Below are positions 8,818 to 29,292 of a stretch of DNA of 44,929 bases, in pieces. A model generated the notes under the pieces. It did no database searches, had not been told where the DNA came from, and saw only the letters and a program-made list of their open reading frames with translations. Location of the stretch: the NCBI GenBank assembly GCA_016191815.1, contig JACPVI010000056.1:1-44929 (forward strand). Direction: 5' to 3'. The translations under genes were made by a program, and so were the position numbers. This DNA comes from Myxococcales bacterium (lineage in GTDB: Bacteria > Myxococcota > Myxococcia > Myxococcales > Myxococcaceae). Every line of letters starts with the position of its first letter. The stretch's first letter is position 1.

Positions 8818-9744
8818 TCACTCCTCATCCCCGAAGTAGTCGAGGTCGAGCTTCTTCACCGTGTACGTCGCGATCTCGGTGACGCCGATGCCGTGGTCGA
8901 TCATCAGCCTGGCCAGTTCGGCGCCGTCGATGAGGACGATCTTCTTCTCGTTCTGCCGGACGTAATCCCTGGCCTCCCGGCTGAAGTCCGACGTCGAGAT
9001 CAGGACCCCTTTCCGGGCACGTTGCCCCTCGAGGCTGCCCGCGAACGCCTGAACAACGGGCCGACCAACGGTGTTGGTCCAGCGCTTTGCCTGGATGTAG
9101 ACGACGTCGAGACCGAGCCGGTCCTCCTTGATGATGCCGTCGATACCCTCGTCGCCGCTCTGGCCGACGGCTTGCCCGGCGTCTTTGCGAGAACCGCCGT
9201 AGCCCATCGCCACCAGCAGATCGACCACCAGCTTCTCGAAGAAGCGCGGCGTGCAGCCCTTGATCCGCTCCAAGAGCTCATCGGCCAAGCGGCGCCGGAG
9301 CTCCTGGTAGCTGTCCTCGAGAATCTCCTCAGGCGTCTCCGTGCTGTCGGGCAGCTTGACGTCCGAGGTCTGCGGCTCAGGCTCTTTGTCCTCCTCGTGC
9401 CTCAGCGCGGCGAACGCGTTGTACTCCGGGAACTGCTTCAAGAACTCCATGTCGATGCGGTTCGGCTTGCCCTTCAGCACCTCGCGGCCCCGGGTGGTGA
9501 TTCGGAAGCGGCCCCGCCCGTTGGGCTCCACCAGTCCAGCCTTCTGGAGGTACGTCTTCGCCCAGCCCACCCGATTGTGGATTCGCCGCTGGCGACCGCT
9601 TGGAAGCACCTCGTTGCGTTCCTGCTCGGTCGCCTTGAACTCCTCCGCGATAACCTCGATGGCCTCGCCCAGCGTGTGGTCCTTGCCGTCCTGGCTCAGC
9701 CGGAGAATGGGCAACATCGCGCTTTGGAAGTCTGGAATCGGCAT
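8818..9744 (-). CDS. Mrr-family restriction endonuclease
   Basis: A 308-residue protein of the Mrr type IV restriction family, which cleaves DNA carrying foreign methylation. The N-terminal half is the winged-helix Mrr_N domain (residues 1-100, with PIPDFQSAMLPILRL). The C-terminal half (about 160-290) is the nuclease: FFEKLVVDLLVAMGY, SGDEGIDGII with D202, then VVYIQAKRW with Q218 and K220, the D-x-QxK version of the PD-(D/E)XK site, and KGVLISTSDFS. All key residues are present. The start at 9744 is preceded by AGAGGTGA eight bases upstream; a longer frame to 9855 adds only G-rich low-complexity sequence. No methyltransferase is adjacent, consistent with a stand-alone type IV enzyme. Confidence 0.9.
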   Translation of the reverse strand: MPIPDFQSAMLPILRLSQDGKDHTLGEAIEVIAEEFKATEQERNEVLPSGRQRRIHNRVGWAKTYLQKAGLVEPNGRGRFRITTRGREVLKGKPNRIDMEFLKQFPEYNAFAALRHEEDKEPEPQTSDVKLPDSTETPEEILEDSYQELRRRLADELLERIKGCTPRFFEKLVVDLLVAMGYGGSRKDAGQAVGQSGDEGIDGIIKEDRLGLDVVYIQAKRWTNTVGRPVVQAFAGSLEGQRARKGVLISTSDFSREARDYVRQNEKKIVLIDGAELARLMIDHGIGVTEIATYTVKKLDLDYFGDEE

Positions 9745-10304
9745 CAGCGCTTCACCTCTTGCGTCGCAAAACGGTACCCACCCCCAGCCCCCCCACACAC
9801 CACCTACAAAACTGGATCGACCCTCTGTCCTGACTGCACCAATGCCCCCCTGCACCCTCCAATCTGAACACCCGCCGCCCCTCTCTGGCCACCTGTTCCA
9901 TCAGCCCGCTCCCGACCACGCCCTCCCAACCACGACGGAGGGCGTGGTCGGGAGCGGGCGGCGTCCTCTGACCGAAGCCGTTCCTGGGGGCGGCGGGCGC
10001 TCGAGACCTCCATAATGCAACGGGAATTCGGCAGGACCGTAACGGTGGAAGTCCCCTGCCAACCCCACGGTCCACCTCGCGGTGAGCTGGTGAGGATCGG
10101 CCGCGGGGTAGGCCTCCGCGTCGCCCGCGGTTTTGATCAGCGTTGATTACGAACCTGATCGTCCATCGGCCCGTCATCGCTGCGGAAATCGCGCTGGACC
10201 GGGGGCTCCGCCCGGCCTGGGCCTTGACGAAAACATCCGCCGGCGGTCACAAAGCACCCAGAGCGATGATTGGGCGGTCCCTTCGATCGCGAAAGGAGAT
10301 CACG
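9745..10304. other. 560-bp non-coding region between mrr and the excisionase gene
   Basis: I see no convincing gene. From about 9776 to 9900 the plus strand is pyrimidine- and C-rich, so the mrr leader (minus strand) is G-rich with several G-runs. A 23-bp perfect inverted repeat lies at 9904-9959. The right end holds the ribosome site of the excisionase-like gene. It could contain replication, transfer or regulatory sites of the element. Confidence 0.5.
9904..9959. repeat. Perfect 23-bp inverted repeat with 10-nt loop
   Basis: Arms 9904-9926 and 9937-9959 are exact reverse complements (GCCCGCTCCCGACCACGCCC begins the left arm). No T-tract follows on either strand, so it is not a typical intrinsic terminator. 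It could be an origin, transfer or protein-binding structure. Confidence 0.85.
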
Positions 10305-10535
10305 GTGACGAGCAGGCTGGGGAAGAACAGCGCCGAGACGGCGCTCCTGGACGTGGCCTGGGTGGCCGAGTACCTGGGTGTGTCGAAATCGTGGGTCTAC
10401 CAAGCGGCCGAGTCGGGGGTGCTCCCCTGCATCAAGCTGGGCGCCCGTCTCCTCTTCGACGCCGAGGTCATCAAGGCATGGTCGCGCGGCCAGGCGACGT
10501 CAGTCCGCGCTGTCAGACTCCCGAGCTGCCGCTGA
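10305..10535 (+). CDS. Excisionase-like HTH protein upstream of integrase
   Basis: A 76-residue protein starting at a GTG (10305) with AGGAG at 10294-10298, six bases upstream, which decides against the longer TTG-initiated frame. It contains one MerR/excisionase-type HTH (DVAWVAEYLGVSKSWVYQAA, then ESGVLPCIKLGARLLFDAEV and IKAWSRG). Such proteins bend DNA and set the direction of integrase-mediated recombination. It is encoded 13 bp upstream of the integrase and is surely co-transcribed. It resembles, but is not a duplicate of, the left-end HTH protein at 1267. Confidence 0.85.
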   Translation: MTSRLGKNSAETALLDVAWVAEYLGVSKSWVYQAAESGVLPCIKLGARLLFDAEVIKAWSRGQATSVRAVRLPSCR

Positions 10536-10548
10536 ACCGGAGAACCGC

Positions 10549-12042
10549 ATGGCGAGTGCCTTTCTGAAACGGAAGAGCTGGTACGTGAACTTCGTCGACG
10601 GCCACGGCCGCCGCCGCACGGTCGCCACGACCGCGCGCACGAAGGCGGAGGCGAATCGCCTCGCCGCAGAAATCGAGCAGAAGGCGGAACGGCAACGGCT
10701 CGGGCTCGAGCAGCTGCCCTCGGAATCGTCGATGACGCTCGCCGAGCTTTGCCGCTGGTGGCTCGACCAACGGTGCTCGCCTCACCGCGTCTACAACGAG
10801 GAGAAGCGGCTCGAACGGCACGTGCTCAGGTCGAAGCTCGGAGCGACCGAACTCCGGTTGGTGACGGCCGACCTGATCGACGACCAACTCCGCGCGATGG
10901 AGCGCGCCGGCCTGAGCGCGTGGACGGTCAACGGGGTCCGCGCGGTGCTGCGCACGGTCTACTCGCGCGCGAGGAAGGCGCGCATCTGGACGGGACCGAA
11001 CCCGGTCGATGACGTCGAACCGCGCCGCATTCCCCGCAAGATTCCCACGACGCTCCGCGCGGAAGAGGTGCCGCTCCTTGTCGCGCACGTGCCCTATGAG
11101 TGGCGCGACCTGTTCGCCACCGCCCTCTACACGGCGCTGCGCAAAGGCGAGCTGTTCGGCCTGCAGAAGGCGGACATCGACTTCGGCCTGGGCACCATCA
11201 CGGTCGCCCGCTCGTACGACCGCGACACGACCAAGGGCGGTCACGCCGACGTGATTCCGATCGCTCCGCCGCTCGCGCCGTTCCTCCGCCACGCGGTCGA
11301 GAGCTCACCGAGCGAATACGTCTTCCCTGCCCCGGACGGCTCGATGCGGAAGCCGAGTCTCGACCCGCAGAAGATCCTCCGCCGGGCGCTCGCCCGCGCG
11401 GGCCTGGTCGACGGCTACGAGCACGTCTGCCGTCGATGCAAGGCGAAGGGAATGCCGCACCAGGAGCGTCACTCCGACGACGAGCTCCGGCGCTGCCCGC
11501 AGTGCGGCATGAAGCTCTGGCCGCGCGCAATCCACCGCAAGATGAAATTCCACGGGCTGCGCCATTCAACGGCCACGCTACTGCTTCGCGCCGGCATCGA
11601 CGCTCACCGCGTGCAGCGCATCCTCCGGCACAGCGACATCACCATCACCACCGAGACGTACGGCCACCTGAACATCGACGACCTCCGGCCCGCGCTCCGC
11701 GCACTGCCGAACGTCGAATTCAGCGGTACCAGCAACGACGTCGTCGACGCCGAGTTCGCCGAAACCTGCGACCCGCACGGGAAAAATTCGCGAATTTCTT
11801 CTACCCGGCTTCTACCCGCCGCCGCCGCCGAAAAGACGAAGGCCGGAACCGCTGCGAATTCCGAAGCGATTCCGGCCTCTTACCCAGTCGGGGAGACAGG
11901 ATTTGAACCTGCGACCCCTTGGTCCCGAACCAAGTGCTCTACCAGGCTGAGCCACTCCCCGCCTTGCGACTCCGTAGGATCTACTGGAGCGAGTGATCGG
12001 AGTCAACGCCGGCTCGGCGGCTCGCCACGGGGGCAGCCATGA
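10549..12042 (+). CDS. int: Tyrosine integrase, reading through attR and the tRNA
   Basis: A 497-residue tyrosine recombinase. An N-terminal arm-binding region (SAFLKRKSWYVNFVDG) and a SAM-like core-binding domain (about 62-150) precede the catalytic domain with R198 (ALRKGEL), K229, H335-x-x-R338 (HGLRHS), H361 and nucleophile Y371 (TTETYGHL). A zinc-ribbon insert with C294-x2-C297 and C316-x2-C319 sits between the lysine and the HxxR box. The frame has no stop after the catalytic tyrosine for another 126 residues. It passes the arm site, the attR core and the tRNA antisense strand, and ends in host DNA 81 bp beyond the tRNA. The last 37 codons are thus host-encoded and will differ in the circular form. 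The ATG at 10549 is chosen because it starts immediately before the conserved arm-binding motif. Confidence 0.9.
   Translation: MASAFLKRKSWYVNFVDGHGRRRTVATTARTKAEANRLAAEIEQKAERQRLGLEQLPSESSMTLAELCRWWLDQRCSPHRVYNEEKRLERHVLRSKLGATELRLVTADLIDDQLRAMERAGLSAWTVNGVRAVLRTVYSRARKARIWTGPNPVDDVEPRRIPRKIPTTLRAEEVPLLVAHVPYEWRDLFATALYTALRKGELFGLQKADIDFGLGTITVARSYDRDTTKGGHADVIPIAPPLAPFLRHAVESSPSEYVFPAPDGSMRKPSLDPQKILRRALARAGLVDGYEHVCRRCKAKGMPHQERHSDDELRRCPQCGMKLWPRAIHRKMKFHGLRHSTATLLLRAGIDAHRVQRILRHSDITITTETYGHLNIDDLRPALRALPNVEFSGTSNDVVDAEFAETCDPHGKNSRISSTRLLPAAAAEKTKAGTAANSEAIPASYPVGETGFEPATPWSRTKCSTRLSHSPPCDSVGSTGASDRSQRRLGGSPRGQP
11796..11817 (+). promoter_or_regulatory. Candidate integrase arm-type site, right
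   Basis: Exact 22-bp copy of 1272-1293, holding TTCTACCC at 11799-11806 and 11810-11817. It lies about 70 bp inside attR and within the 3' part of the integrase frame. Confidence 0.5.
11831..11877 (-). terminator. Element-borne replacement terminator for tRNA-Pro
   Basis: On the minus strand, 10 nt past the tRNA 3' end, a 13-bp stem with one mismatch (11865-11877 with 11841-11853) closes an 11-nt loop and is followed by TTCGTCTTTT. It stands where the original tRNA terminator would have been and is supplied by the element. Confidence 0.65.
11887..11929. repeat. attR: 43-bp core within intact tRNA-Pro
   Basis: Identical to 1114-1156. It covers the 3' half of the functional tRNA gene, so integration restores the tRNA. 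Confidence 0.95.
11888..11961 (-). tRNA. tRNA-Pro (anticodon CGG)
   Basis: A 74-nt cloverleaf on the minus strand. The acceptor stem CGGGGAG pairs with CTCCCCG and is followed by discriminator A. The anticodon stem CTTGG/CCAAG holds loop TTCGGGA, giving anticodon CGG with G37, as expected for proline. The T-arm contains GGTTCAAATCC. CCA is not encoded. The 3' half is the core of the integrated element. Confidence 0.95.
11978..12006 (-). promoter_or_regulatory. Probable promoter of tRNA-Pro
   Basis: TTGACT (12001-12006) and TAGATC (11978-11983) on the minus strand are separated by exactly 17 bp. The -10 element ends 16 bp before the tRNA 5' end, leaving room for a short leader. Confidence 0.6.
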
Positions 12043-13284: not shown

Positions 13285-14796
13285 GTGCCCGCCAAGCCCG
13301 CCCTCGCCGATAGCCACCAGCTCCTCCAGCGCCGGGTCCAGAAGCTCACCTCCATCCTCGACGTGGCCAAAGCCATGACCGCGCAGCACGACCTCGAGGA
13401 GCTTCTGCAGCTCATCCTTCGCGAGGCGGCCAAGGTGGTGGAGGCGGACCGCTGCTCGCTGTTCATCCTCGATCGGCAGCGGAACGAGCTGTGGTCCCGA
13501 ATCGCCCAGGGCGCCTCGGGCGAAATCCGGGTGCCGCTCGGGGTGGGCATCGCCGGCACGGTCGCCAAGACCGGCGAGATCATCAACATCGTCGATGCCT
13601 ACTCGGACGACCGCTTCAATCGCAGCATCGACCTGACCATGGGCTACCGCACCAAGAGCATCCTCTGCGTGCCCATGCGCGACGCGAGGGGAGAAATCAC
13701 CGGCGTCCTCCAGGCCCTCAACGCGGTGGACGGCGCCTTCGACGCGGAAGACCAAGAGTTCCTCCTGGCCCTGGGCGCGCAGGCGGCGGTGGCCGTCGAG
13801 AACGCGGTGCTCCACGACGAGATCAACAAGCTCTTCGAAGGCTTCGTGAGCGCCTCGGTGGTGGCGATCGAGTCACGCGATCCCTCTACCGCTGGCCACT
13901 CGGGACGAGTGGCCTCGCTCACCGTCGGGCTGGCTGAAGCTCTGGAGCACCTGACCACCGGCCAGTACGCCGGCACCCGCTTCGCCGCCGCCGACATCCA
14001 GGAGATACGCTACGCTTCCCTGCTCCACGACTTCGGGAAAGTGGGAGTCCGGGAGCCGGTGCTGGTGAAGGCCGAGAAGCTCTACCCCCACGAGCTGGAG
14101 GTGCTGCGCCAGCGCTTCGACCTCGCCCGCAAGGACAGGCACCTCGAGTCATTCCGCCGCCGCTTCAAGGCGCTGGCGGCGCGCGGCGAGCGCTTTGCCA
14201 AGGAGATCGAAGAGGAGGAAGACGAGCTGCTCGCGCGCGAGCTGAAAGAGCTGGACGGCGCCTTCGAGTTCATCCTCTCCTGCAACCGCCCCACCGTGCT
14301 CGCGCAAGGGGGCTTCGAGCGGCTGGCGGGGATCTCGCAGGTGGGGTTCAACGACGCCCGCGGCGCGCCGCAGAAGCTGCTCCTGCCGAGTGAGGTCCAG
14401 GTCCTCTCCATTCCCAAAGGCTCGCTCTCCTCCCTGGAGCGGCGGGAGATCGAATCGCACGTGACGCACACCTTCCGCTTCCTGAGCCAGATTCCCTGGA
14501 CGAGGGCGCTGCGGCGCGTGCCGGACATCGCCTACGCCCACCACGAGAAGCTCGACGGGCAGGGCTACCCAAGGGCCATCCAGGCGGAGGAGATCCCCGT
14601 CCAGTCGCGGATGATGGCCATCTCAGACATCTACGACGCGCTCACTGCCTCCGACCGCCCCTACAAGAAGGCGGTGCCGCACGCGCTGGCGCTGGACATC
14701 CTCCGGAAGGAAGCCGAGCAGGGCCAGCTCGACAAGGAGCTGTTCCGCGTGTTCATCGAGGCGGACATCTCCAAGCGGTTCATCAAGGCGCGCTGA
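13285..14796 (+). CDS. GAF/HD-GYP protein with a long insertion in the HD domain
   Basis: A 503-residue cytoplasmic signalling protein starting at a GTG with GAGGAG about 8 bases upstream. A GAF domain covers roughly residues 17-180 (DRCSLFILDRQRNELWSRIA, then VPLGVGIAGTVAKTGE). It is followed by an HD-GYP phosphodiesterase domain of the cyclic-di-GMP-hydrolysing family: RDPSTAGHSGRVA, the HD pair in LLHDFGKVGV near residue 246, and HHEKLDGQGYP near residue 418. The distance from the HD pair to HHE is about 170 residues, roughly 110 more than usual. The insert is highly charged, with an EIEEEEDELLARELKE helix. The metal ligands appear intact, so it is probably active, with the GAF domain sensing a ligand. 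Confidence 0.88.
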   Translation: MPAKPALADSHQLLQRRVQKLTSILDVAKAMTAQHDLEELLQLILREAAKVVEADRCSLFILDRQRNELWSRIAQGASGEIRVPLGVGIAGTVAKTGEIINIVDAYSDDRFNRSIDLTMGYRTKSILCVPMRDARGEITGVLQALNAVDGAFDAEDQEFLLALGAQAAVAVENAVLHDEINKLFEGFVSASVVAIESRDPSTAGHSGRVASLTVGLAEALEHLTTGQYAGTRFAAADIQEIRYASLLHDFGKVGVREPVLVKAEKLYPHELEVLRQRFDLARKDRHLESFRRRFKALAARGERFAKEIEEEEDELLARELKELDGAFEFILSCNRPTVLAQGGFERLAGISQVGFNDARGAPQKLLLPSEVQVLSIPKGSLSSLERREIESHVTHTFRFLSQIPWTRALRRVPDIAYAHHEKLDGQGYPRAIQAEEIPVQSRMMAISDIYDALTASDRPYKKAVPHALALDILRKEAEQGQLDKELFRVFIEADISKRFIKAR

Positions 14797-14813: not shown

Positions 14814-17800
14814 TCAACCGCAGGCGCCACCCTGGCAGCGCGCCGGCGCCTTGCAGTCGGAGTCGAAGGCGCAGCTGTTCCGGCAGCTGCCGTTCACGTC
14901 GCAGGTGTAGCTGCCGCAGTCGCCATGCGGATCCGTCCCCGGGCGTGCTGCGGAACAGGAGCCGGGCACCTGGCCGTCGCAGGTGCGGCAGGCACCGGAG
15001 CAGGCCGCCGACGCGCAGCACACCCCGTCGGTACAGTTGCCGCTCTGGCACTGGCTGGCCCTGAGGCAACGGCTGCCAAATGGGAGGTCCCCCACGCACG
15101 CCAGGCCGCTGCAGTGCGCCGCTGGGGCGCAGTGCGAATCGACCGCACAGCTCGAGCGGCAACTCCCAGAAGTGCCGCCGCACACGTACGGCGCGCAGCT
15201 CGGCGCTCCCCAAGCTCCCGCCGGCAACCGGGTGCAGCTCCCGGGCGTGGAATCACACACCTCGCAGGAGCCGGTGCACGCCCCATCGCAGCAATAGCCG
15301 TCCACGCAGTGCCCGGAGGTGCACTCCACCGCAGACGAGCAAGCGCTGCCCTTCGGCTTTTTCGGGGCACAGCTCGATCCGGTGCAGTAATGGCTCGCCT
15401 TGCACTCCGCTCCGGTGCCGGAGCAGCCCGAAAAGCACGCCCCACTCCCGTCGCAGACGTATCCGCCACACTCGTTGGCCGGATCCGTCCCCCTCGCGCT
15501 GGACTCGCAGAGGCCGCTCCCCGCCTGGCACCGCCGGCATTCCCCCGTGCAGCCGCTCGCGCAGCACACTCCGTCGGCGCAGGCGCCGCTCAGGCATTCG
15601 ACCGCGGCGGCACAAGAGAGGCCGTCCGCCTTCTTCGGCCGACAGCTTCCCGACGAATCGCAGTAGCTCCCGGCGACGCAATGCGCCTGGACGAGGCAAC
15701 TTCCCGGGCAGGTCGAGGTGCCCCGGCAAAGGTAGGGCGAGCAGGAGGGGCTGCCGGTGCGCCCGTCCGACAAGGAGAGGTTGGTGCACAGGCCCTGGAA
15801 CCCGGCGAGGTCGCAGGAATCGCACTGGCCTCCGCAGACCGCGTTGCAGCATCGGCCGTCGACGCACAACCCGGAGGCGCACTGGCCGGCGCTGGAGCAC
15901 GCCACTCCGATTGGGGCCTTGGCCAGGCAGGCGGGAGGCTGGGCGCCAAGGTCGCACCGGTTCCCTATCTTGCAGTCCGCGTCCGAGCCACACGGAGAAG
16001 CGCAGCCGCCAGCTCCGGCGCAATACGCGAGTCCGCACTCGCCTTCCGGGTCGGTGCCGCTCGCCACCGACCCGCAGCTCCCGGAGGCGTCGCAGGCTTG
16101 GCAGGGGCCGGCGCACGAGGAGGTGCAGCACACTCCGTCCACGCAATAGCCGCTTGCGCATTCGGCGGCGCGTTGGCAGGGCGAGCCGTCGGCGCGCTTC
16201 TGCCGGCACGCGGCCAAGGGCGGTGAAAAGTCACAGTAGGCCGTCGCCTCGCAGCTCGCGTCCGAGGTGCAAGGAGACAGGCACGAGAAGGAGGCGGTGC
16301 AGAACGTGAGCGGGCACTCCGCTTCCGGGTCAGTGCCGCCGGGATACCCGCTGCACCTGCCCTCGCGGCCAGAGAGGTTGCAGGACTGGCACCGCCCCGA
16401 GCACGGCCCGTCGCAGCACCTGCCGTCGGCGCAGAACCCCGAGACGCACTCATCGCCGGCGCCGCAGCTCGCCCCCACCGCCTGATCAGGCACGCACGAG
16501 CCCGACCGGCAATGGAAGGGTGCCTCGCATTCGGCCTGGGTAGCGCAAGTCGCGTTGCACGCCCGCGCTCCGTTGCAGGAAAGCCCGCCTTGGCACTCCG
16601 AGGAGCTGTCCGTCCCGGCAGCGATGGGAGAGCAACTTCCCGCCGCGCCGGGCAAGTCGCAGGCCTCGCACGGCCCCGCGCAGGAGGAGCCGCAGCAGAC
16701 GCCGTCGGCGCAGTAGCCGGAGGTGCATTGGTTGGAGGCGTAGCAGAACTGGCCGACCGCCCGCTTCGGCGCGCAGGCTCCGAGGTTGCAGAACCCGCTC
16801 ACGCCGCACTGCGAGTCGGTGGCGCAGGGCGCCCCGCAGGCGGACAGGCCGTTGCAGAGGTTTCCGCCGCACTCCGAGGCGGGATCCGTTCCCGCCGGCA
16901 CCGGCAGGCAGGCGCCCAGCCCCGGGTCGAAGTTGCAGGCCTCGCAGGGCCGGTCGCAGAGCGCGCTGCAGCACACCCCGTCGGCACAGAAGCCCGACTG
17001 GCACTGGACGCCGCCGTCGCACACCGCGCCGGTGGCCCGAAGCGCGATGCAGCCTCCGTCCGCGCAGCCGAACCCCATCTCGCAGTCGGAGGCGATGGCG
17101 CAAGCGGTGCGGCAGCCACTCCCCCCGTCCGGCAAGAGGCCGGTGCAGGCGAGACCACCGGCGCAGTCCCCCTCGGGGTCCGTCCCCGCCGGGGAAGCGG
17201 AGCAGGCCCCGCTCCGGCCCGCGACGATGCAGCTCCGGCAGGCGCCGGAGCAGGGCCGGTCGCAGCAGACGCCGTCGATACAGAAGGTAGAGGCGCACTC
17301 CCCTGCGTCGGCGCAGCCGACGCCCAGCGCCTTGCCGGGGATGCACGCGCCGAGCTGGCAGAGGAAGCCGGATTCGCACTGGGCGGCTCCAATGCAGCTC
17401 GCGTGGCAGGCGCCCGTGCCGTCGCAGGCGAGCCCTCCGGGGCACTCGCCAAACGGATCCTGCCCCGCCTGGATGAAGCTGCAGCTCCCCGCCGCGCCAC
17501 CGAGGTTACAGGCTCGGCAGCTCCCCGCGCAGGTGGAGTTGCAGCAGAAGCCGTCCACGCAATCGAGGCCGGCGGCGCACTCCCGCGTCCTGGCGCAACT
17601 CGCCCCTTGCGCCTTGAGCGGGAGGCAGCCGGACGCCCCTGCGCAGTACGCCGACGCCTTGCAGTCCCGGTCGTCGCCGCAAGGGCCGGAGGCGCAAAGC
17701 CCGTCGGCGCGACAGGCGTAGGCGCCCGGACACGACCCGGGGAAGCCCCAGGCGTGCGGCAGACACAGCCCCAAGTACCCGGGGAAATCGCACGAGCGGC

Positions 17801-19112
17801 ACGGAGTGCCTTGGCAATCGCTCTCGCAGCACAACCCGTCGGCGCAGAAGGCGGCCACGCACTCGGCGCCCGCGCCGCAGGGATTCCCGGAAACCTTCCT
17901 CGCCGCGCATCCGCCGCCGGCGCCGCAGTAGTACCCGGCGGCACAAGGGGCAGCAGGGCCGCACGCAGATGGGCAGCTCGCGGTCTGCCCGCAGGCCTGG
18001 CCGGGCGCGCAGGAGGGAGCGGGCGTCCCGCCGGGGCCGGCCGGCGAGCACGAGCCCGGCACCGACCCGTTGCAGCTGTCGCACGGCCCGGAGCAGGCGG
18101 AGGAGCAGCACAAGCCGTCCACGCAGAGGCCGCTCTGGCATTCGTTTCCGGAGGCGCAGGCATCTCCTTGGGCGCGGCGGGGAACACAGAGGCCGCCCTG
18201 GCAGAAGGCGGAGCTCCGGCACTCGGCGTCGGTCCCGCAGCTCGTCGCGCAGCTTCCCGAGAGGCACGCGTACGCTCCGCACGATGCTTGCGTCTCCGGG
18301 CACCCGCCGGCGCCGTCACAGGCCCGAGTGACGAGCGCTGAGTCGCGCGAAGCGCACCACGGCCAGCGGCAGGGCGTACCCACCGGGACATAGGCGCAAG
18401 CGCCCGCGCCGTCGCAGCTCGCCCCGCACGTCCCGCCGGGGCCGCACTCGGCCTGCGGATCCTGCCCGGCAGGAATCGGGCTGCAGCTCCCTTCCTTGCC
18501 CGCGAGCAGGCAGGACTCGCAGCGGCCTCCGCAGGGCCGGTCGCAGCAGACTCCGTCGGCGCAGTATCCGGAGGCGCAGGCGGCTCCGGAGCCGCAGAGG
18601 CTGCCGCTGGGCAGCTCCGCCTCGCACGCTCCACTCCTGCAGCTGGCGGAAGCCGCGCATTCGGCCGGCACCGAGCAGCGCGACAGGCAGGCGCCGCTTC
18701 GGCAGGCGTACGGAGCGCAAGGAGCCAAAAGCAGGCCGCACGCTCCCTTGCCGTCGCAGGCCGCGCGTTGGACCGAGTCGGCTGCGCACACCCGCTCGCC
18801 GCAGCTCTTCTCCGCCCCGGGATAGCGGCAGGCGCCCTGGCCATCGCACGCGCCACCGCAAATCCCCGCGGCGCAGGCGTGTCGGAGGTCCCTCCCGTCG
18901 GGGACCGGGGCGCACAGGCCTTCCGAGCCCGACACCGCGCACGAGAAGCAAGCGCCCTCGCAAGCGCTCTCGCAGCAGACGCCGTCCACGCAGAAGCCCG
19001 AGGCGCACTCCCCGCCTTGGCTGCAGAGAGTCCCGGGGGCGGCGGCCTGGGGCCTCGGACAGGCGGCGAGGAGCGCGCAAGCACCCATCAGCGCGACCGC
19101 CCAGCGTACCAT
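14814..19112 (-). CDS. Giant cysteine-rich repeat lipoprotein
   Basis: A 1432-residue protein with a lipoprotein signal (MVRWAVALMGACALLAAC; the cysteine at residue 18 is the likely lipidated residue). The rest is built from about 14 repeats, each roughly 90-110 residues, with the signature C-x-S-G-x-C-x-D-G-x-CC followed by C-x-G-x-C-x-S-C and then a CSP/GTDPEGEC-type loop. Cysteine content is extreme and spacing regular, implying disulfide-stacked modules outside the cytoplasm. Similar repeats are common in myxobacterial surface proteins, but I know of no defined function. It converges with the HD-GYP gene, 17 bp apart. It is probably a cell-surface adhesin or shield; this is inference. Confidence 0.8.
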   Translation of the reverse strand: MVRWAVALMGACALLAACPRPQAAAPGTLCSQGGECASGFCVDGVCCESACEGACFSCAVSGSEGLCAPVPDGRDLRHACAAGICGGACDGQGACRYPGAEKSCGERVCAADSVQRAACDGKGACGLLLAPCAPYACRSGACLSRCSVPAECAASASCRSGACEAELPSGSLCGSGAACASGYCADGVCCDRPCGGRCESCLLAGKEGSCSPIPAGQDPQAECGPGGTCGASCDGAGACAYVPVGTPCRWPWCASRDSALVTRACDGAGGCPETQASCGAYACLSGSCATSCGTDAECRSSAFCQGGLCVPRRAQGDACASGNECQSGLCVDGLCCSSACSGPCDSCNGSVPGSCSPAGPGGTPAPSCAPGQACGQTASCPSACGPAAPCAAGYYCGAGGGCAARKVSGNPCGAGAECVAAFCADGLCCESDCQGTPCRSCDFPGYLGLCLPHAWGFPGSCPGAYACRADGLCASGPCGDDRDCKASAYCAGASGCLPLKAQGASCARTRECAAGLDCVDGFCCNSTCAGSCRACNLGGAAGSCSFIQAGQDPFGECPGGLACDGTGACHASCIGAAQCESGFLCQLGACIPGKALGVGCADAGECASTFCIDGVCCDRPCSGACRSCIVAGRSGACSASPAGTDPEGDCAGGLACTGLLPDGGSGCRTACAIASDCEMGFGCADGGCIALRATGAVCDGGVQCQSGFCADGVCCSALCDRPCEACNFDPGLGACLPVPAGTDPASECGGNLCNGLSACGAPCATDSQCGVSGFCNLGACAPKRAVGQFCYASNQCTSGYCADGVCCGSSCAGPCEACDLPGAAGSCSPIAAGTDSSSECQGGLSCNGARACNATCATQAECEAPFHCRSGSCVPDQAVGASCGAGDECVSGFCADGRCCDGPCSGRCQSCNLSGREGRCSGYPGGTDPEAECPLTFCTASFSCLSPCTSDASCEATAYCDFSPPLAACRQKRADGSPCQRAAECASGYCVDGVCCTSSCAGPCQACDASGSCGSVASGTDPEGECGLAYCAGAGGCASPCGSDADCKIGNRCDLGAQPPACLAKAPIGVACSSAGQCASGLCVDGRCCNAVCGGQCDSCDLAGFQGLCTNLSLSDGRTGSPSCSPYLCRGTSTCPGSCLVQAHCVAGSYCDSSGSCRPKKADGLSCAAAVECLSGACADGVCCASGCTGECRRCQAGSGLCESSARGTDPANECGGYVCDGSGACFSGCSGTGAECKASHYCTGSSCAPKKPKGSACSSAVECTSGHCVDGYCCDGACTGSCEVCDSTPGSCTRLPAGAWGAPSCAPYVCGGTSGSCRSSCAVDSHCAPAAHCSGLACVGDLPFGSRCLRASQCQSGNCTDGVCCASAACSGACRTCDGQVPGSCSAARPGTDPHGDCGSYTCDVNGSCRNSCAFDSDCKAPARCQGGACG

Positions 19113-19183
19113 GCCGGCTGACGTTAGCAGGGCGACCGGGCGCGGCGCAGCCGGATGATCCCACCGTCACGGTCCCGGTCTTC

Positions 19184-19939
19184 TCAGCCGCGGAGGAGCA
19201 CCCGGAGGTTCTGCCGCTCCCAGCGCAGGGCAGCCTCGTAGTAGGGGAACTGCCGCTCGCGCAGGCGGAAATCCCTCGGGTGGTGCACCTTCCTGGACCT
19301 GCCGCTCGAGGGGAAGAGCTGGTGCAGCATCTCGTGGAAGACGATGAACTCGACGAAGAAGGCGGGCACCTCCGGGCGGTCGAGCGCGGGGTGGATGCGG
19401 ATCTCCTTGGTCTGGTGGTCATACACCCCGAGCCGAATGGACTTCCGGCGGCGGCGGCCGGGCATCCGGCCCCAGCCGATCTTCGCCTGGATGGCGTAGA
19501 GGAAGTGGGCCTGGTTCACCCTTTCGTAGATGGCCTGGAGATCGAAGTACCTCCCCCGCGGGTTCAGCTCGGAGTCCGGGTCACCATCGCGGCGGATGAG
19601 CGGCTGGCGCCCACGGATGTAGTCGTCCAATACCGGCCCGGCGCTCCTTTGGCCCCGCCCGGCGTAGTCGGCGATCGCGCACACCACCCTCTCCGGGGCA
19701 TCGAGGAACATGTGATGCACCCTCAGCCGCAAGGAGGAAGTCGCCCTCCGAAAGCTCACCATGGTCGAGCGGTTGTCGGTCACCGACAGCCGCACCGCCA
19801 TGCCGAGCTGGCTGGAGATGCGGTGGGCGAGGTGGTCGGCCTTGAAGAGAATCTCCTCGCGAGTCGGCAGGGGGCGAGTGCCCGTCGCGCGCGCGAGCTG
19901 AGGATCGAAGAGCGAGAGCTGAAATGGCGCGGTGTGCAC
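19184..19939 (-). CDS. SprT-like zinc metalloprotease-fold protein
   Basis: A 251-residue protein with H202-E203-x2-H206 (FIVFHEMLHQLFP) and a following HHPRDFR around 219-225 that supplies the third histidine, as in SprT/Spartan-like domains. Upstream are KIGWGRMPGRRRRKSIRLGV and EIRIHPALDRPEVP, which match the family's strand region before the active helix. The N-terminal 100 residues are an additional region I do not recognise. It starts with GTG at 19939. No signal peptide. It lies 60 bp downstream of the YkgJ-like gene on the same strand, possibly in one transcript. The substrate is unknown; eukaryotic relatives cut DNA-protein crosslinks. Confidence 0.75.
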   Translation of the reverse strand: MHTAPFQLSLFDPQLARATGTRPLPTREEILFKADHLAHRISSQLGMAVRLSVTDNRSTMVSFRRATSSLRLRVHHMFLDAPERVVCAIADYAGRGQRSAGPVLDDYIRGRQPLIRRDGDPDSELNPRGRYFDLQAIYERVNQAHFLYAIQAKIGWGRMPGRRRRKSIRLGVYDHQTKEIRIHPALDRPEVPAFFVEFIVFHEMLHQLFPSSGRSRKVHHPRDFRLRERQFPYYEAALRWERQNLRVLLRG

Positions 19940-20647: not shown

Positions 20648-23600
20648 CTACCAGGCGGTGCCGAAGATGTTGTAGAGGCCGCGCATGATCTCCAGGCTGC
20701 GCACCGCCTCGCGAGTCTTCGCCTCCCAGAGGGCCTTCTCGCTCGGGGTGGTGGCCTGGTCCCACTTGGTCTTGTAGTTGCGGGCGTTGATGATGAGCTG
20801 CGGAGCCGCGGTGACCTTGGTGGCGCCGGTCTGCTTGAGAGCGGCGTAGATGTAGCCGCCGAACGGATCGGCGAACTGCTCCACCTCGTAGCCGGCGGCC
20901 GGGGTGAGCTGCTCGCCGGAGCCGAGCCGGAACACCTGGTTGTAGCTGGCGAACTCCTGGTTGAAGTTCTCGGTGAAGTAAGCCATGCCCCACACCTCGC
21001 TGTAGAAGCGGGTGCTCCAGGTGGGCGAGGCCTCGACCTTCTCCAGCGGGAGCGGGTTGCCGGTGGTGTCGACCGGGGTCGGCGTGCGCGGCGGGTAGTT
21101 GAAGTTCGCGATGTAGTCCTCGCCGCGAACGAAGTTGGGCGGCACCACCGTGGCCAGGCCGTTGCCGGTCTTGAGCAGGCCGGCGGCGTACCTGGGCCGA
21201 TCGTCGATCCACACCGAGCTGAAGGTGTCGGCCAGCTCGCGGTTGAAGGTCATGTAGTAGGGCAAGGAGTAGCGGAGCGCATCGGCGCCGCGGTCGACGC
21301 CGAGGAAGTTGGTCTCGCTGCTGGTGAGGGCGAACAGCGCCACCACCTGGTCCCAGAAGTGGCCGATCTCGTTGACGCGGCCGAAGTAGTCCATGCCCTC
21401 GTCATCGTAGAGGGTGTACATGGTCTTGCCGGGGCCGCGGGGGACGTAGACCACGTCGGTGTAGCCCTGGGCCTTCATGTCGGTGATGAAGGTCGCCTCG
21501 CGGGCCGCGGTGAAGCGGCCGTTGTAGGGGTTGTTGCCGGGGAGGTGCACCCAGGTGCCGCTGGGCAGCTTGCCGTGGTAGCCGGCCGAGGGGGTGGAGA
21601 GCTGCTGGACGAGGAAGTTGGTGCTGTCGATCACCGCCATGGTCCAGTAGTTCTGGAAGATGGGGTCTCCCACGCCGAACCACTCCTCCATCTGCTCGGT
21701 GCTGATCTGGTACCAGTTCTGCAGCCAGTAGATGTTGAACAGCCACTGCTGGTAGACGTTGGGCAGGTTGCCCAGGTAGCGGCCCTCGATGCGCTGCAGG
21801 TAGGTGGAGGGGCCGAAGCAGCTGTCGTCGTAGCAGGCCAGCCGGTCGCGGCGGAAGCTGTTGAAGGCGTAGTACTCCTTGTACCGGCTGATCCAGTCCT
21901 GGGTCATCTCGAACACGTCCGCGCCGGCGTCCCACCGGTTGCAGGCGATGTTGGCGCCGACCTCGTAGTCGGAGCAGTACATGTAGGGCACCTCGACCGG
22001 GGCGTTGCGCGCCACCTTGCCGACGATGTCCCGCGCCTTCTCCCAGTCGGGCGCGCTCCAGCCTCCGAAGCGGAGGTTCCACTGGTGCACCTCGTTCTCG
22101 ATCTTCCCGTACACCGCCTCCATCTCGCTCCACTTGCGGAAGGAGCGGTTGTGCATGCGCTTGATGCCCTCATCGAGCGCCGCCTCGAAGCCCTTGTCCA
22201 AGGTGGAGCGGTCGGCGAAGTGGAAGGGCAGCGTGGTGTAGTGGAACCGGTCGGTGTAGAAGTTGGAGACCGGAGTGTAGTGCTCGACCTGGGCGAGCGG
22301 CAGCTCCACCTGGGCGCCGCGGACCACCATCGGCTTGGCCAGGTTCTCGGTGGGCACCGAGATGTTGGGGCTGTCGTAGTCCTGGCGGGTCTGGTTGAAG
22401 ACCTCGACCCAGCCGGGCTCTCCGCCGCCGGCGTAGGCGAAGAGGATGGCGGCGTCGTCGTACTTGCCGATCCCGCGCACGTCGGAGTTGATGCGCGAGG
22501 CGTAGTCCATGACGGTCGAGTACTGGTACTCGTGCATCTGGGCGTCCATCTGGGCCTGGTTGGGCTTGGAGGCATCGAGCAGGTTCTGCGGGCTGCTCGG
22601 GAGCACCCGCTGCCCGCCCACCAGGACGCCGATGGTCTGCTTGCGCAAGTCCCAGTAACCGTCGACGAAGTTCATCGCGTCGAAGGAGCCCACGAAGTTG
22701 TGGGTGAGGCCGACGGTGTGGCCGATCTCGTGCTCGGTCACCGCCCGGAAGGCGGCGATGCGGATCTCGTTCCACACCTCGTCGCGGGCGATGCGGCGGG
22801 CGTCCTCGTCGGTCTTGCCCTGGGCCTTCAGCTCGGCGAAGCGCTTGTCGTAGAAGACCTTCATCTTCTTGGCGAAGCCGACCATCCCCTCGTCGAGGAA
22901 CTCGGCGAGGTAGGCGCAGCCGTTGTGGGGGAGCGTGCTGGCCTTGACGACGCGGTCCTGGCGCAGCTTCTCCATCTCGCCGGTGCGGAGGATGGTCTCG
23001 CGCGCCACCTGGCGATAGAGGGTGGCGTCGGTCTGGAGCCGCCGGCCGAACTCGCCGCCCGGGGCCATGGAGAGCACCATCGAGCGGACCTCGGGCTGGT
23101 TGAGGATCTCCGACTCGAGGGCGGGGCTCTTGGAGATGAGCTCGGCGACCACCTTCCGGCGGTTCTGCAGGGCGAGCGGCGGGTGGCCGGTCTTCACCAT
23201 CGCGTCCACCTGGGCCTTGAGGTTGCCGCGGATGCGGGCGTAGGAGGCCAGCGGGACCTGCGGCTCCGAGGTGAGGCCCTGCTGCGAGCTCCACGGTCCG
23301 GAGGGCGGCCGCCGGGGGTCGGTGGCGTTCAGGTGCTCGAAGACGTACTCCTTCACGTTCTTGCCGGCGATCAACTCGTCGATGGTGAGGTCGCCGTTGA
23401 GCAGGTCGACGATGGACTGCGCGTCGCCGGCCCAGGTGTCGAGCGCGGCGCCGTAGATGTTGGCCACGCCCTGGACGATCTCGCCGGTCTCCGGATCAGG
23501 CGCGGACGGCCCGAGGCCCAAGGGCCCGTAGATCTGAGGCTGGTCGATCCAGGGGATGAGGTTGTAGCGGAGGTCGCCCAGGCGGACCGACAGTCCCTCG

Positions 23601-24856
23601 GGTCCGCAGGCGGCCGGAGCGCCCTTGGGCACCGGCGTCTGGCAGACGTGGAACATCTGCGGCACGTCGGCGACCTCGATGCCGCGGGGCACCGCCACCG
23701 CCCGGCGGAAGGCGAAGTCCCAGCTCTCCTCGGTCTGCTTGGCGGCCGGCAAAAGCTCCTGCGGGAAGTTTGGGGTGAGGTAGTAGACCACCGGCTCGAG
23801 CTCGCGCTCCTGGACCGGGAGGGGCCTGCGGCAGGCGCCGAACTCGCAGGCGAACCCCTCGGGGCAGGCGGAGGCGCTGTTGCAGGTGCCGGCGACCTCG
23901 TGGGACTTCTTCCAGAGGTTGTGCCGATTGGCGTAGGTGAGCCGGCCGGTTTCGGTGACGCCGCGGTTTCGGTCGTAGGAGACGCGCTCGCTGCGGAAGA
24001 AGCCGAACTTCTTCATCAGCTTGTCGCCGTAGAGCAGCGGCTCGTAGTCCTGCACGTGCGCTTCGTCGACCTTGAGTACCGACGTGCGGAGCTTCATTTC
24101 CTGGCTCTCGCAGTCGATGCGGGGGTTGAGCCAGCAGTAGGGCAGCGAGCCGTAGCCGGGGTAATAGAACTTCGGCGGGTTGAGGTAGGCCCTGGTGGTG
24201 AAGTCGAAGTAGGTGAGGGTCTTCTTGCCGCCGACGGTCTTGTACTCGGTGAAGAAGGCGCTGTCGCCCTGGTTCTGATCGATCGAGGTGACGTAGCTCC
24301 GAAGCGAGGCGGCCTTCACGAAGTCGTCATCGCTCCCGTCGAGGAAGTTGCCGGAGATGTTGTTGGCCCAGTTGACCCGGATGAACTCGCGTTCGTACCA
24401 CGGCCGATCGGTGCCGTTCTCCTCGAGGACGTTGGTTTGCTCGCCAGTAGCGGGATTGTACTGACGCTGCCGGTCGAAGTGGCTCTCGATCGGCCAAGCG
24501 CTCACCGGGGCGCCCCGGAAAGGCCTTCCGTCGATCAGCACCGTGCTGCCGATGGTGGACTTCTCGCGGTCCACCAACGGGTCGGTGCCGGGGATCCACT
24601 CGTAGGTGCGGAAGGCGACCAGGGTGTTCTCCTGGATCTCGAACCGCACCTTGTCCATCATCCCGCCGTACCCGATAGGGAGGATCGCTCCGGTGGCGGG
24701 CACGTCGACGACGGTGTCCTGGATGTACCAGGTACCGCTCAACAGGTCGGACTTCTTGATGTAGTTGGGCTGGGTCCGGTCGATCAGTTCGGGGCCTCGG
24801 CCGCAAGCCACCGCGGCGAGCGCGGCGGCGACGAGCGCGATGTGGCGGTAGTTCAT
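20648..24856 (-). CDS. Large zinc-metalloprotease lipoprotein (paralogue 1)
   Basis: A 1402-residue protein. The ATG at 24856 is preceded by GGAG five bases upstream and begins a lipoprotein signal (NYRHIALVAAALAAVAC). The zinc site is the extended metzincin motif H-E-x2-H-x2-G-x2-H (TEHEIGHTVGLTHNFVGSFD) near residues 705-717, characteristic of the DUF4953-type zinc-dependent metalloproteases. The N-terminal half has the family's RVQPN/TQPNYIKKSDL start and a repeated beta-rich part. At 1402 residues it is longer than the ~800-900 residues common in other phyla. It lies 44 bp downstream of its paralogue and is last in the operon. It is predicted to be extracytoplasmic and lipid-anchored; the substrate is unknown. 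Confidence 0.82.
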   Translation of the reverse strand: MNYRHIALVAAALAAVACGRGPELIDRTQPNYIKKSDLLSGTWYIQDTVVDVPATGAILPIGYGGMMDKVRFEIQENTLVAFRTYEWIPGTDPLVDREKSTIGSTVLIDGRPFRGAPVSAWPIESHFDRQRQYNPATGEQTNVLEENGTDRPWYEREFIRVNWANNISGNFLDGSDDDFVKAASLRSYVTSIDQNQGDSAFFTEYKTVGGKKTLTYFDFTTRAYLNPPKFYYPGYGSLPYCWLNPRIDCESQEMKLRTSVLKVDEAHVQDYEPLLYGDKLMKKFGFFRSERVSYDRNRGVTETGRLTYANRHNLWKKSHEVAGTCNSASACPEGFACEFGACRRPLPVQERELEPVVYYLTPNFPQELLPAAKQTEESWDFAFRRAVAVPRGIEVADVPQMFHVCQTPVPKGAPAACGPEGLSVRLGDLRYNLIPWIDQPQIYGPLGLGPSAPDPETGEIVQGVANIYGAALDTWAGDAQSIVDLLNGDLTIDELIAGKNVKEYVFEHLNATDPRRPPSGPWSSQQGLTSEPQVPLASYARIRGNLKAQVDAMVKTGHPPLALQNRRKVVAELISKSPALESEILNQPEVRSMVLSMAPGGEFGRRLQTDATLYRQVARETILRTGEMEKLRQDRVVKASTLPHNGCAYLAEFLDEGMVGFAKKMKVFYDKRFAELKAQGKTDEDARRIARDEVWNEIRIAAFRAVTEHEIGHTVGLTHNFVGSFDAMNFVDGYWDLRKQTIGVLVGGQRVLPSSPQNLLDASKPNQAQMDAQMHEYQYSTVMDYASRINSDVRGIGKYDDAAILFAYAGGGEPGWVEVFNQTRQDYDSPNISVPTENLAKPMVVRGAQVELPLAQVEHYTPVSNFYTDRFHYTTLPFHFADRSTLDKGFEAALDEGIKRMHNRSFRKWSEMEAVYGKIENEVHQWNLRFGGWSAPDWEKARDIVGKVARNAPVEVPYMYCSDYEVGANIACNRWDAGADVFEMTQDWISRYKEYYAFNSFRRDRLACYDDSCFGPSTYLQRIEGRYLGNLPNVYQQWLFNIYWLQNWYQISTEQMEEWFGVGDPIFQNYWTMAVIDSTNFLVQQLSTPSAGYHGKLPSGTWVHLPGNNPYNGRFTAAREATFITDMKAQGYTDVVYVPRGPGKTMYTLYDDEGMDYFGRVNEIGHFWDQVVALFALTSSETNFLGVDRGADALRYSLPYYMTFNRELADTFSSVWIDDRPRYAAGLLKTGNGLATVVPPNFVRGEDYIANFNYPPRTPTPVDTTGNPLPLEKVEASPTWSTRFYSEVWGMAYFTENFNQEFASYNQVFRLGSGEQLTPAAGYEVEQFADPFGGYIYAALKQTGATKVTAAPQLIINARNYKTKWDQATTPSEKALWEAKTREAVRSLEIMRGLYNIFGTAW

Positions 24857-24900
24857 GGCAGCTCCGTGGAGGTTCTTGGAGGGCGAATTCGCGGAGGTCA

Positions 24901-27900
24901 TTAGAAGGCCCTCCCGAACACGCCGTAGAACCCGCGCGCGAGGTCGAGGTCGCGCAGCATATCCTTGAAGTACTCCAGGTACTCCCGGCGCCGCTGCTCG
25001 ATGAGCACGGGGTTGTTCCGCTCATCGGCCGGCATGCAGGAGCCGATGGTGGACGCCGGCCCGTAGGGGTTGGGGAGCTCCGGCATCGGGCAGATGGCCG
25101 GATTCTCCACCACCTTGCGATAGGCGTCGGCGATGTTGATCAGCCGGATGGGCGGAGTGGAGTTAGGAGCCGCCCCGTCTTTTTCCAGCGCCACGTAGCG
25201 GCTGCCGGTGCTGATGTCCGGCACCTCCACCGTGTGGTACCCGGTCGCGGGGGTGACGGTCTCCGACCCGCCGATCTTGAACACCATGTTGGACTTGGCG
25301 TAGTCGAGGTCGTAGTTGATGCTGAACAGCGCCATCCCGAGGTAGAGCGCGTAGATGCGACTCGACCAGGTGAGCTGCATGTTGGCCTCTCCAGGGTACT
25401 GGGAGGCATCGAGGCAGTCGGTGGTCTGGGTGGCGGTGCAGATCAGATCCTTCCGCTTCGGGTAGTCGAAGTTCTTGATGAAGTTCTTCCCCTCGATGAA
25501 GGTGCGGAAGTGGAGCGCCGGGGTGGAGGTGACCTTCCCGGTGTCGTCCTTGGCGAGGTACATGGTCGGCCTGATCGGGGTTTCGTCCATGCCCCACAGC
25601 GCCGAGAAGAGGTCGCTGAACTCCTTCTTGAAGACCAGGTAGTAGGGGATGTAGTAGCGGTCGCGATCGGCGTAGTAGTCGATCGCTGGGAACTCCGCCT
25701 CCGGGAGCACCGCGGCGATCATCGCGCCGATCTGGTCGTTGTAGTGACCGGCCTCGAGCATGCGGTACCAGAAGCCGAAGCCGCTCTTGAAGTCGTAGCG
25801 GCTGTACATGCGCCGGGCGTGGCCGCGCTTCATGATGGCGAAGGCCTGGGCGGCGGCGCTGCCCCAGGTGTTCTGGTCCGAGTAGTAGTCCATGAGCTTC
25901 TGCTGGCCCTCGGGGGAGAGCTCATCGAAGTCGACGCCCTCGGAGAGATAGTCCCACTGACCGCGGCCGCTGAGGTTTCTGAACATGAAGAAGCCGGCCG
26001 GCGGAACCGACATCACCGCCAGGTTGGCGTTGGATGCGTCCAAAACCGCCATCGACCAGGTGTCCTGGATCAACGGGTCATAGTTGAAGCGCTGCACGTT
26101 CTGCCGGTTGGGCCCGCTCTGGCCGTAGAAGGCGTGCACCCAGTGCTTGTAGATGCTGGCCAGCTCGTAGAAGGTGCCAGCGGCGTTGTTGAACGCGCTC
26201 GAAGAGCTGAACAGGTAGCGGTCCCGCTTGAAGTGGGTGAAGAAGTAGTCGTTCCAGTAGTCCTCGATCATCTGCCGCGAGATCTCGAAGTAGTCCGGCC
26301 CGCGATCGAACCGGTTGCAGGAGAGCACCAGCCCCACCTCGGAGTCGGAGCAGAAGAGGTAGGGCACCTCCATGGGCGTGCTGCCGACGTCGGAGGCAGT
26401 GGGGGCAGGGTTGGTCTTGAGAATCGCCGCGAGGCGGTCGTTCTCCACCTTCACGTCCGCCCACTTCATCAGCTTGCGGCGCTTGAGCTTGGCAATGCCG
26501 TCCGCGATGGTGGACTCGATGTCGTTCCCTTCGCCGAAGTGCAGGGGCACCGTGGAGAAGTGGTAGCGCTCGGTGTAGCTGGGGATGCCCTGGTGCCGGT
26601 GCTCGGCGTTGACCAGCGGCAAGTCGAACGCCGCTCCGGTGATGGTCATCTGCTTGCCGTCGGTGCCGGGGAAGCTGGCCGGGTCGCGCCGGGCGGACTC
26701 GAACACCTCCACGTACCCGGGCTTGGTATCGCCCGAGTAGGCGAAGACGATCGCCGCTTCGTCGTACTTGCCCACGCCCTGGAAGTCGGCGTTCAGCTTC
26801 CCGGCGTAGTCCATGATCGACGAGTACTCGTAGTCGTTGAGGCCCTGGGCGAGCTGAACCTCGGTGCCGTCGGAGGCCGCCTTGAGGTCGCCCGGGGTGC
26901 GCGGAATCTTCGGCGTCCCGCTCTGCTGGACGGTCAGGCTGGGCTTCTTGACCTCCCAGTACCGGTCGAAGTAGTTGACCGAGTCGAACGAGCCCTGGAA
27001 GTTGTGCCGCAGTCCAAGGGTGTGCCCGACCTCGTGCTCGCTGGTGGCCCTCCAGACGAGCTTGCGGAACCGACGGCGGATCTCCTCGTCGGCGATCCGG
27101 CGGGCCTCATCGGCGGTGCAGGTGGCGGCCTTGCACAGGCCGGTCACCGTGACGCCGTCGCGATCCAGCTTGCCCTCGGCCATCAGCGAGGCAACGTTCT
27201 TCTGGCGGCGGAAGTGCTCCTGGTAGGCCAGGCCCAGCATCGGCCGGTCGAAGAACTCGGCGAGGTAGATGTTCCGCTTTGAGGCCCACTCCACCCGGCG
27301 CTTGCTCAGCTTGAGGGCATCGCCTACCCGGGTAAGCACAAGCCGGGATGCGGACCGGCGGAAGTCGGAGTCGGTCTCGGCGCGCTGCGCCAGCTCAGGC
27401 GGCAGCAGGCCCACCACGTCGGCTTGGACGTCGGGGTTGTCGAGCAGAGCCGACTCCAGCGCGGGGTTCTGTTTCAGGAGGTCCGCAGCAGCCTTCATCC
27501 GGTCGGAGCTGAACTCCGGCAGCCCGTTGACCCGCAGTGCCTGGAGCACCGCAGCAGTCCTCTCGGTGGGCCGCTCGAAGGCGCCCAGAGTCTCCTCCGC
27601 GGTCTGGGGAATTCCCTGCAACTCGGATTGGATGAGCCCCTGCTTGCTGCGGTTGGGGTTGGCGTAGGAGAGGTTGGCCGTGATGTAGGCCTTCACGTCT
27701 TCGCCGCGGATGATCTGGTCGATGCTCCTCTCGCCCACCAGCATGTCGATGATGTCCAGACCCCGCTGAGCGATGGTGTCCACCGCCGCGGAGTAGGTGT
27801 TGGCGTTGGCAGAGATGATCTCCCCGGTCTCGGGGTCCGCGGAGGAAGGCCCGTAGCCGAGCAGCCCGTTGGGGACCGGATCAGTGATGGTGTAGATGAA

Positions 27901-29244: not shown

Positions 29245-29292
29245 GGTGCCTCCGTTGGGGAACGAGTTTCGGAAAGTCATGGGGGCCTCGGC

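Follow-up and report, generated by a model that had tools for sequence, protein, structure and literature searches.

A putative Myxococcales lipoprotein of 14 cysteine-rich units, a headless extreme of a large repeat family and a candidate surface stalk

Long stalks closed by disulfide bonds are familiar on animal and protist surfaces and, to our knowledge, are rarely discussed for bacteria. Here we describe a gene for a predicted 1432-residue lipoprotein made of cysteine (Cys)-rich repeats, in a 44,929-nucleotide stretch of the draft genome of a Myxococcales bacterium (assembly GCA_016191815.1, contig JACPVI010000056.1; the whole stretch is called the window, and the protein the window protein). 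The array is real, and the protein stands at the headless end of a repeat family that is large among myxobacteria; on balance, we lean towards its forming a disulfide-closed stalk or fibre with a mechanical role at the outer-membrane surface.

One report on TraA of myxobacteria describes a head borne on Cys-rich repeats and proposes that these could form a rigid stalk (PMC3325183), and another states that two TraA repeats are dispensable (PMC6626042). The window protein resembles TraA (NF033759) as an exported protein with Cys-rich tandem repeats, of the kind proposed as a stalk in the former source, in a myxobacterial surface setting. Membership of the TraA repeat family was tried and rejected, as the window protein gave 0 NCBIfam matches at E values up to 10 while three TraA controls match the repeat model TIGR04201; in these controls, taken from three relatives, TIGR04201 was found in 9, 10 and 7 stretches and the TraA scores were 320-346 bits. 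The TIGR04201 model is 22 residues long, compared to the 93 amino acid (aa) units of the window protein, which also differs from TraA in having neither the TraA N-terminal domain (TIGR04566 was not found by NCBIfam at E up to 10) nor the C-terminal MYXO-CTERM tag of Cys, transmembrane segment and arginine (TIGR03901, 0 NCBIfam matches). No TraA or TraB match over cut-off was obtained in the source draft genome, and a profile of the window units (described below) had no match in the open reading frames (ORFs) of at least 200 aa in five loci chosen for their TraB-type matches; TraA is present in three of these loci.

The second likeness is to Dickkopf_N (PF04706) of the animal Wnt antagonists, a Pfam model which the window protein matches with 37.8 bits (gathering cut-off 25) in six stretches, the best being residues 478-523, across a unit junction; there is also a weak structural match to Dkk1 and Draxin. 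The window repeat differs in being bacterial, tandem and, by prediction, lipid-anchored, and the second Cys-rich half of each unit lies outside the match. Two relatives (L050 and L052) fall below the Dickkopf_N cut-off and, as far as we know, a Wnt co-receptor pathway is not to be expected in bacteria. A pacifastin-like fold with six Cys has been reported from some myxobacteria (PMC13388995) and belongs to a family that differs from the window repeat, and literature searches on repeats of the present type in myxobacteria found no description.

An array of 14 units behind a lipobox

The gene lies at 14814..19112 on the minus strand (stop codon included) and starts with ATG; the original coordinates, the strand and the length all hold. 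A third-position GC content of 0.86 and the use of TGC for 222 of the 242 Cys codons fit a real gene. Residues 1-17 (19062..19112, minus strand) form a predicted signal peptide ending in LLAA ahead of Cys18 (19059..19061, minus strand), the predicted lipidation site; the claim that this is a lipoprotein is supported by a lipobox pattern, LLAAC at residue 18.

From residue 25 to the last residue the protein is a tandem array of 14 units, with the chain end inside unit 14, when unit boundaries are set at a fixed distance ahead of each DGxCC core. Where SitA-type lipoprotein toxins would have a C-terminal toxin domain, the window protein thus still shows repeats, up to its final residue. Fourteen copies of DGxCC are present (mean in shuffled sequences 0.4), as are 11 exact copies of the full motif C-x-S-G-x-C-x-D-G-x-CC (mean 0.0 in 500 shuffles), from which units 4, 5 and 6 deviate slightly, and so both the predicted number of about 14 disulfide-rich repeats and their periodicity along the whole protein hold. 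The units are in order 143, 146, 93, 95, 93, 98, 92, 93, 96, 93, 95, 91, 91 and 89 aa long. The strict spacing originally proposed is therefore roughly true of units 3-14 (residues 314-1432, up to the C-terminus; 14817..18173, minus strand), which measure 89-98 aa with 16 Cys each, but not of units 1-2 (residues 25-313; 18174..19040, minus strand), which are longer by about 50 aa, carry 8 extra Cys (24 each) and belong to the 140-165 aa class of the family described below.

The mature chain would have 1415 aa, 136 kDa, an isoelectric point of 4.5 and a charge of about -51 at pH 7. Its 241 Cys are accounted for as 1 lipidation Cys, the sole mature Cys outside the units, plus 12x16 and 2x24 (240 in the units), a sum that speaks for the lipobox reading as well as for closure of all the disulfides. 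Formation of disulfides appears to be within the means of the cell: the source genome likely has an oxidising pathway, since a VKOR domain and a DsbA-like domain share one 560-aa frame and there are five further DsbA-like matches; no match to DsbB was found in this genome. As a separate observation, contig C38 of the source genome (37202-38941) has three DsbA-like domains in one 828-aa frame. Cys makes up 17% of the protein, which might suggest a store of thiols or metal instead of a folded stalk; we regard this as very improbable, as the Cys counts are even, a fold is confidently predicted (see below) and a protein with a lipobox goes to an oxidising compartment.

It had also been suggested that the number of repeats could vary between strains by recombination, and for this protein the sequences, from genomes that include none of the same genus, give this no support. 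Mean pairwise identity among the 14 units is 42% (30% without the shared Cys), the best DNA copies within the gene reach 85% identity over 40 nt among the matches listed, and Tandem Repeats Finder returned only one two-copy match of 43 bp. The nearest unit lies within the same protein for 3 of the 14 window units, and for 133 of 490 full-length units over all the proteins compared. Some relatives do bear signs of recent duplication, among them L057, with 9 of its 11 units nearest within the protein and a best non-Cys identity of 0.84. By these sequence comparisons the window array is old.

Quantised cysteine spacing and a predicted fold

To collect relatives, the whole window protein was used as query against one genome per species, which biases the set toward close relatives. 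A total of 361 related stretches matched, of which the best 80 were kept, representing 79 distinct loci (L050-L128). These best 80 of 361 carry the titles Myxococcota, Myxococcales, Polyangia, Polyangiaceae, Polyangium, Archangiaceae, Bradymonadales or "Deltaproteobacteria", apart from five loci titled only Proteobacteria/proteobacterium or bacterium. A unit profile made from the 14 window units was searched against the kept loci, the window and eight loci of the source and related genomes and, after removal of two duplicate loci and of identical ORFs, gave 803 unit matches, 490 of them full length. The family is patchy, being present in 45 of 98 genomes of the order (source genome counted). 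One 7776 bp contig (L205) is nearly all one frame, of 2591 aa with 25 repeat cores and open at both ends.

Core-to-core spacing was measured in ORFs with at least 3 matches, merging cores less than 20 aa apart and excluding gaps longer than 200 aa. Of the 633 intervals, all but 71 belong to one of five separate classes, of about 45, 70, 93, 150 and 178 aa with mostly 8, 12, 16, 24 and 28 Cys: 8 Cys in 25/25 intervals of 43-48 aa, 12 Cys in 116/120 of 64-76 aa, 16 Cys in 131/148 of 87-101 aa, 24 Cys in 222/225 of 140-165 aa and 28 Cys in 35/44 of 168-198 aa. These counts are descriptive because the loci are interdependent (several Polyangium species, and several loci per genome). The Cys number was even in 626 of 633 intervals, as is expected if each unit closes its own disulfides, and every step in spacing adds a set of Cys that can close upon itself. 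The window protein fits these classes with 12 units of 16 Cys (87-101 aa) and two of 24 Cys (140-165 aa), the profile having been built from the window itself.

The original prediction proposed modelling two to three repeats. An AlphaFold2 model of units 8-10 (15915..16760, minus strand; 27 aligned segments) reached a mean predicted local distance difference test score (pLDDT) of 95.4 with a predicted template modelling score (pTM) of 0.71, which, together with the even Cys counts of the family, agrees with the claim of a disulfide-locked folded array; a rod shape is plausible. One repeat, from the end of unit 8 into unit 9 (16281..16556, minus strand), was modelled alone in a frame which begins at the last four Cys of a unit, chosen because the Pfam Dickkopf_N matches lie across unit junctions, with an alignment of 58 out of 276 segments that were selected by script and have all 16 Cys by choice. 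It reached a mean pLDDT of 93.6 and a pTM of 0.77, the five models of this repeat descending from 93.6 to 62.0. The unit frame first proposed is probably not the structural one. We regard the fold as confidently predicted, with a first half that resembles a finger. Disulfide pairing sought from the co-loss of Cys gave no clean answer, as many apparent losses resemble alignment shifts.

Structure searches bear mainly on this first half of the unit, the second half being barely covered. The first 50 residues of the single-repeat model matched Draxin with Z 3.2 (over 50 residues) and Dkk1 with Z 2.9 and 2.8, and the model matched a spider knottin with Z 2.7 and a root mean square deviation of 1.0 over 31 residues; these matches are weak, since every Z is low and the rule of the tool itself counts them as ties. 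The three-unit model gave 5 structural rows with Z of 2 or more (2.2-2.9), led by LEAP2 and including peptides of spiders and cone snails and an entry for a peptide bound to ZNRF3; Dickkopf is absent from these rows, and the Foldseek match of this model to the Dkk4 N-region has an E of 1.5. Neither model had any Foldseek match in the PDB at E 0.001, and phmmer with the whole protein against solved-structure sequences found nothing at E up to 1. The profile of 58 rows gave only three matches there, with E values from 0.04 upward: a ribonuclease and two chains of the Nab2 zinc finger. Eleven predicted virus proteins (E at most 0.001, best 1.7e-6) were taken as generic Cys-rich similarity, with query TM-scores no higher than 0.18.

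The alignments with Draxin, Dkk1 and the spider knottin, and the strong variation of non-Cys positions among the units (mean identity 0.30), are points in favour of the repeats being binding modules, so that the protein would act as a multivalent adhesin or ligand trap with knottin- or Dickkopf-like fingers whose variable loops face prey, kin or matrix. We consider this possible but unlikely, given the low and tied Z values and the propeller head that 9 of the 19 relatives scanned have instead. In addition, the columns conserved at 90% or more in the 58-row alignment are only structural, namely Cys, Gly and the DG-turn Asp (the rows were picked for 16 Cys and so only the non-Cys part is informative), and this points to a scaffold rather than a binding site.

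Architectures of relatives and a mechanical role

A propeller (Kelch or FG-GAP) was found in 9 of the 19 relatives scanned with Pfam, most of which were picked for their long N-terminal parts: two paralogues in the source genome (L040 and L041) and L056, L060, L065, L087, L096, L104 and L118. The N-terminal regions of 10 relatives gave Kelch in 5, FG-GAP in 1, MopE motifs in 2, a Dictyostelium-type repeat in 1 and nothing in 1, and nine further relatives scanned whole gave a Kelch head in three (L060, L040 and L041). These propeller proteins share the repeat family of the window protein by profile and differ in having a head and, in most, a Cys-transmembrane-Arg segment by pattern, where the window protein has repeats only, without head domain or C-terminal tag; L040 and L041 differ further in a spacing of mostly about 70 aa. 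The N-terminal region of L075 (10275-11789) has a Dicty_CTDC match over cut-off. Near-pure arrays, with a lipobox found and fewer than 60 aa outside the array on each side, account for 4 of the 68 ORFs complete at both ends (L067, L077, L114 and the window protein), and the window protein has the least extra sequence among them, with 8 and 1 aa outside.

Of the 78 ORFs whose N-end is visible, window protein included, 44 show the lipobox pattern in the pattern scan; of the 76 whose C-end is visible, 25 show the Cys-transmembrane-Arg segment, a few of these being internal. By NCBIfam, 1 of 4 proteins scanned has a MYXO-CTERM score (L099, 28.6 bits, cut-off 20), and the source genome has 15 MYXO-CTERM matches above cut-off. 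Paralogue L040 (5648-13984, contig C49) consists of a Kelch propeller, 16 unit matches, a MYXO-CTERM-like segment and then in-frame residues, the 425 aa past its last unit being without Pfam match. In two ORFs that are probably from one genome (L047, 4324-11391, and L106, 2-6529), Cys repeats and a Cys-transmembrane-Arg segment are followed in frame by OmpA and Ig-like matches; L106 also matches a barrel-type model, the TraB model gives L047 219.9 bits (its cut-off being 700), and the arrangement looks like a fusion of a stalk with a TraB-like part.

We suggest, then, that the window protein would be an exported protein with a lipid on Cys18 that anchors it in the outer membrane, and that its 14 units would fold successively in the oxidising envelope, each closing all of its own disulfides (8 per 16-Cys unit and 12 per 24-Cys unit, about 120 in total). 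The product would be an acidic stalk or fibre on the outside of the cell, stiff and resistant to proteases, headless and on a single lipid anchor, and its likely work would be mechanical, as a spacer, brush or contact fibre of a surface coat or matrix; in several relatives a stalk of the same repeat would stand under a beta-propeller head. Surface location is plausible from the lipobox and from the relatives with MYXO-CTERM-like tags or OmpA fusions.

Several points weigh against this proposal. The pTM of 0.71 leaves unit-to-unit angles uncertain; a headless protein need not be a stalk, as its repeats could bind; 10 of the 19 relatives scanned have no propeller; the lipobox pattern is crude and missing in 34 of the 78 ORFs; and the tag of L040 scores 18.2 bits against the MYXO-CTERM cut-off of 20, while that of L041 is not among the matches of its genome. 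An outer-membrane lipoprotein can also face the periplasm, as lipoproteins often do, and the sequence holds no readable signal for surface export, so that the protein might span or pad the space between membrane and cell wall. This seems improbable to us, in view of the MYXO-CTERM-like tags of relatives and of the two OmpA-containing ORFs, in which the repeats precede the OmpA-containing part.

At the level of the family, we see an even chance that Myxococcota have a disulfide "construction set", in which a finger-like core module is extended in fixed steps to 8, 12, 16, 24 or 28 Cys and strung into stalks, some with 25 or more units, that carry propeller heads, precede OmpA-containing parts or, as in the window protein, make up a pure fibre of 14 units and about 120 disulfides on one lipid. 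If so, bacteria would have an equivalent of the Cys-rich stalks found in receptors and matrix proteins of animals. Through its regular Cys arithmetic, such a family would provide relatives of multicellular, predatory bacteria with stiff rods whose length is set, and would offer a testable explanation of how myxobacteria may keep sensors and adhesins off the membrane; the headless form isolates the stalk for study.

Genomic setting of the gene

The gene lies between a GAF-HD gene (13285..14796, plus strand), identified by Pfam and the corresponding regions of relatives, and an SprT-like gene (19184..19939, minus strand), which is below the Pfam cut-off and was recognised from the same regions. 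SprT-like matches were found in 56 of 60 genomes examined, source genome included, and the region was compared in 20 of the 55 other genomes, with both flanks visible in 15 of the 20 and some stretches ending at a contig edge. Of those 20 regions, 14 had a match to Rpe, 15 had one to the HD gene and 18 had a gene of the CxxCxxCC and/or metzincin type. No Cys-rich gene stands beside the SprT-like gene in any of the 20 relatives, and hence the gene for the window protein is accessory. In 19 of the 20 the slot beside the SprT-like gene holds pyruvate kinase, which is not so in the window (19112-19184), and the only pyruvate kinase match in the source genome at E 1e-20 is on contig C30, with 49% identity. 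The simplest reading is loss or replacement of pyruvate kinase and gain of the Cys-rich gene at this slot. In relative G009, whose SprT-like gene shows the highest identity (76%), the HD and SprT-like matches are about 30 bp apart with neither gene between them.

Being accessory, and having relatives with propeller heads, the gene might alternatively encode a remnant or partner of the propeller, stalk and tag proteins that has lost its head and has a minor function or none. We hold this to be quite unlikely, because an unbroken frame extends through 4.3 kb, the protein has a lipobox of its own, each of the 14 units keeps a regular Cys count, and three other near-pure arrays occur among the 68 complete ORFs. 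The surface stalk remains the reading that we favour.

In another relative (L196) repeat matches lie about 7 kb from its own SprT-like gene, outside the slot, and at L203 (5835-6191) a 118-aa ORF with 16 Cys has the HD gene on one side and pyruvate kinase on the other, close to the slot. Elsewhere in the window, two adjacent genes co-directional with the Cys-rich gene (20648-24901 and 24901-29280) encode proteins of 1417 and 1459 aa with lipobox-like N-ends and metzincin (DUF4953) matches. Positions 8818-12042 hold an Mrr-type restriction gene, an integrase-type gene and a tRNA-Pro (11887-11961) within the 3' part of the integrase ORF, and may be the edge of an integrated element.

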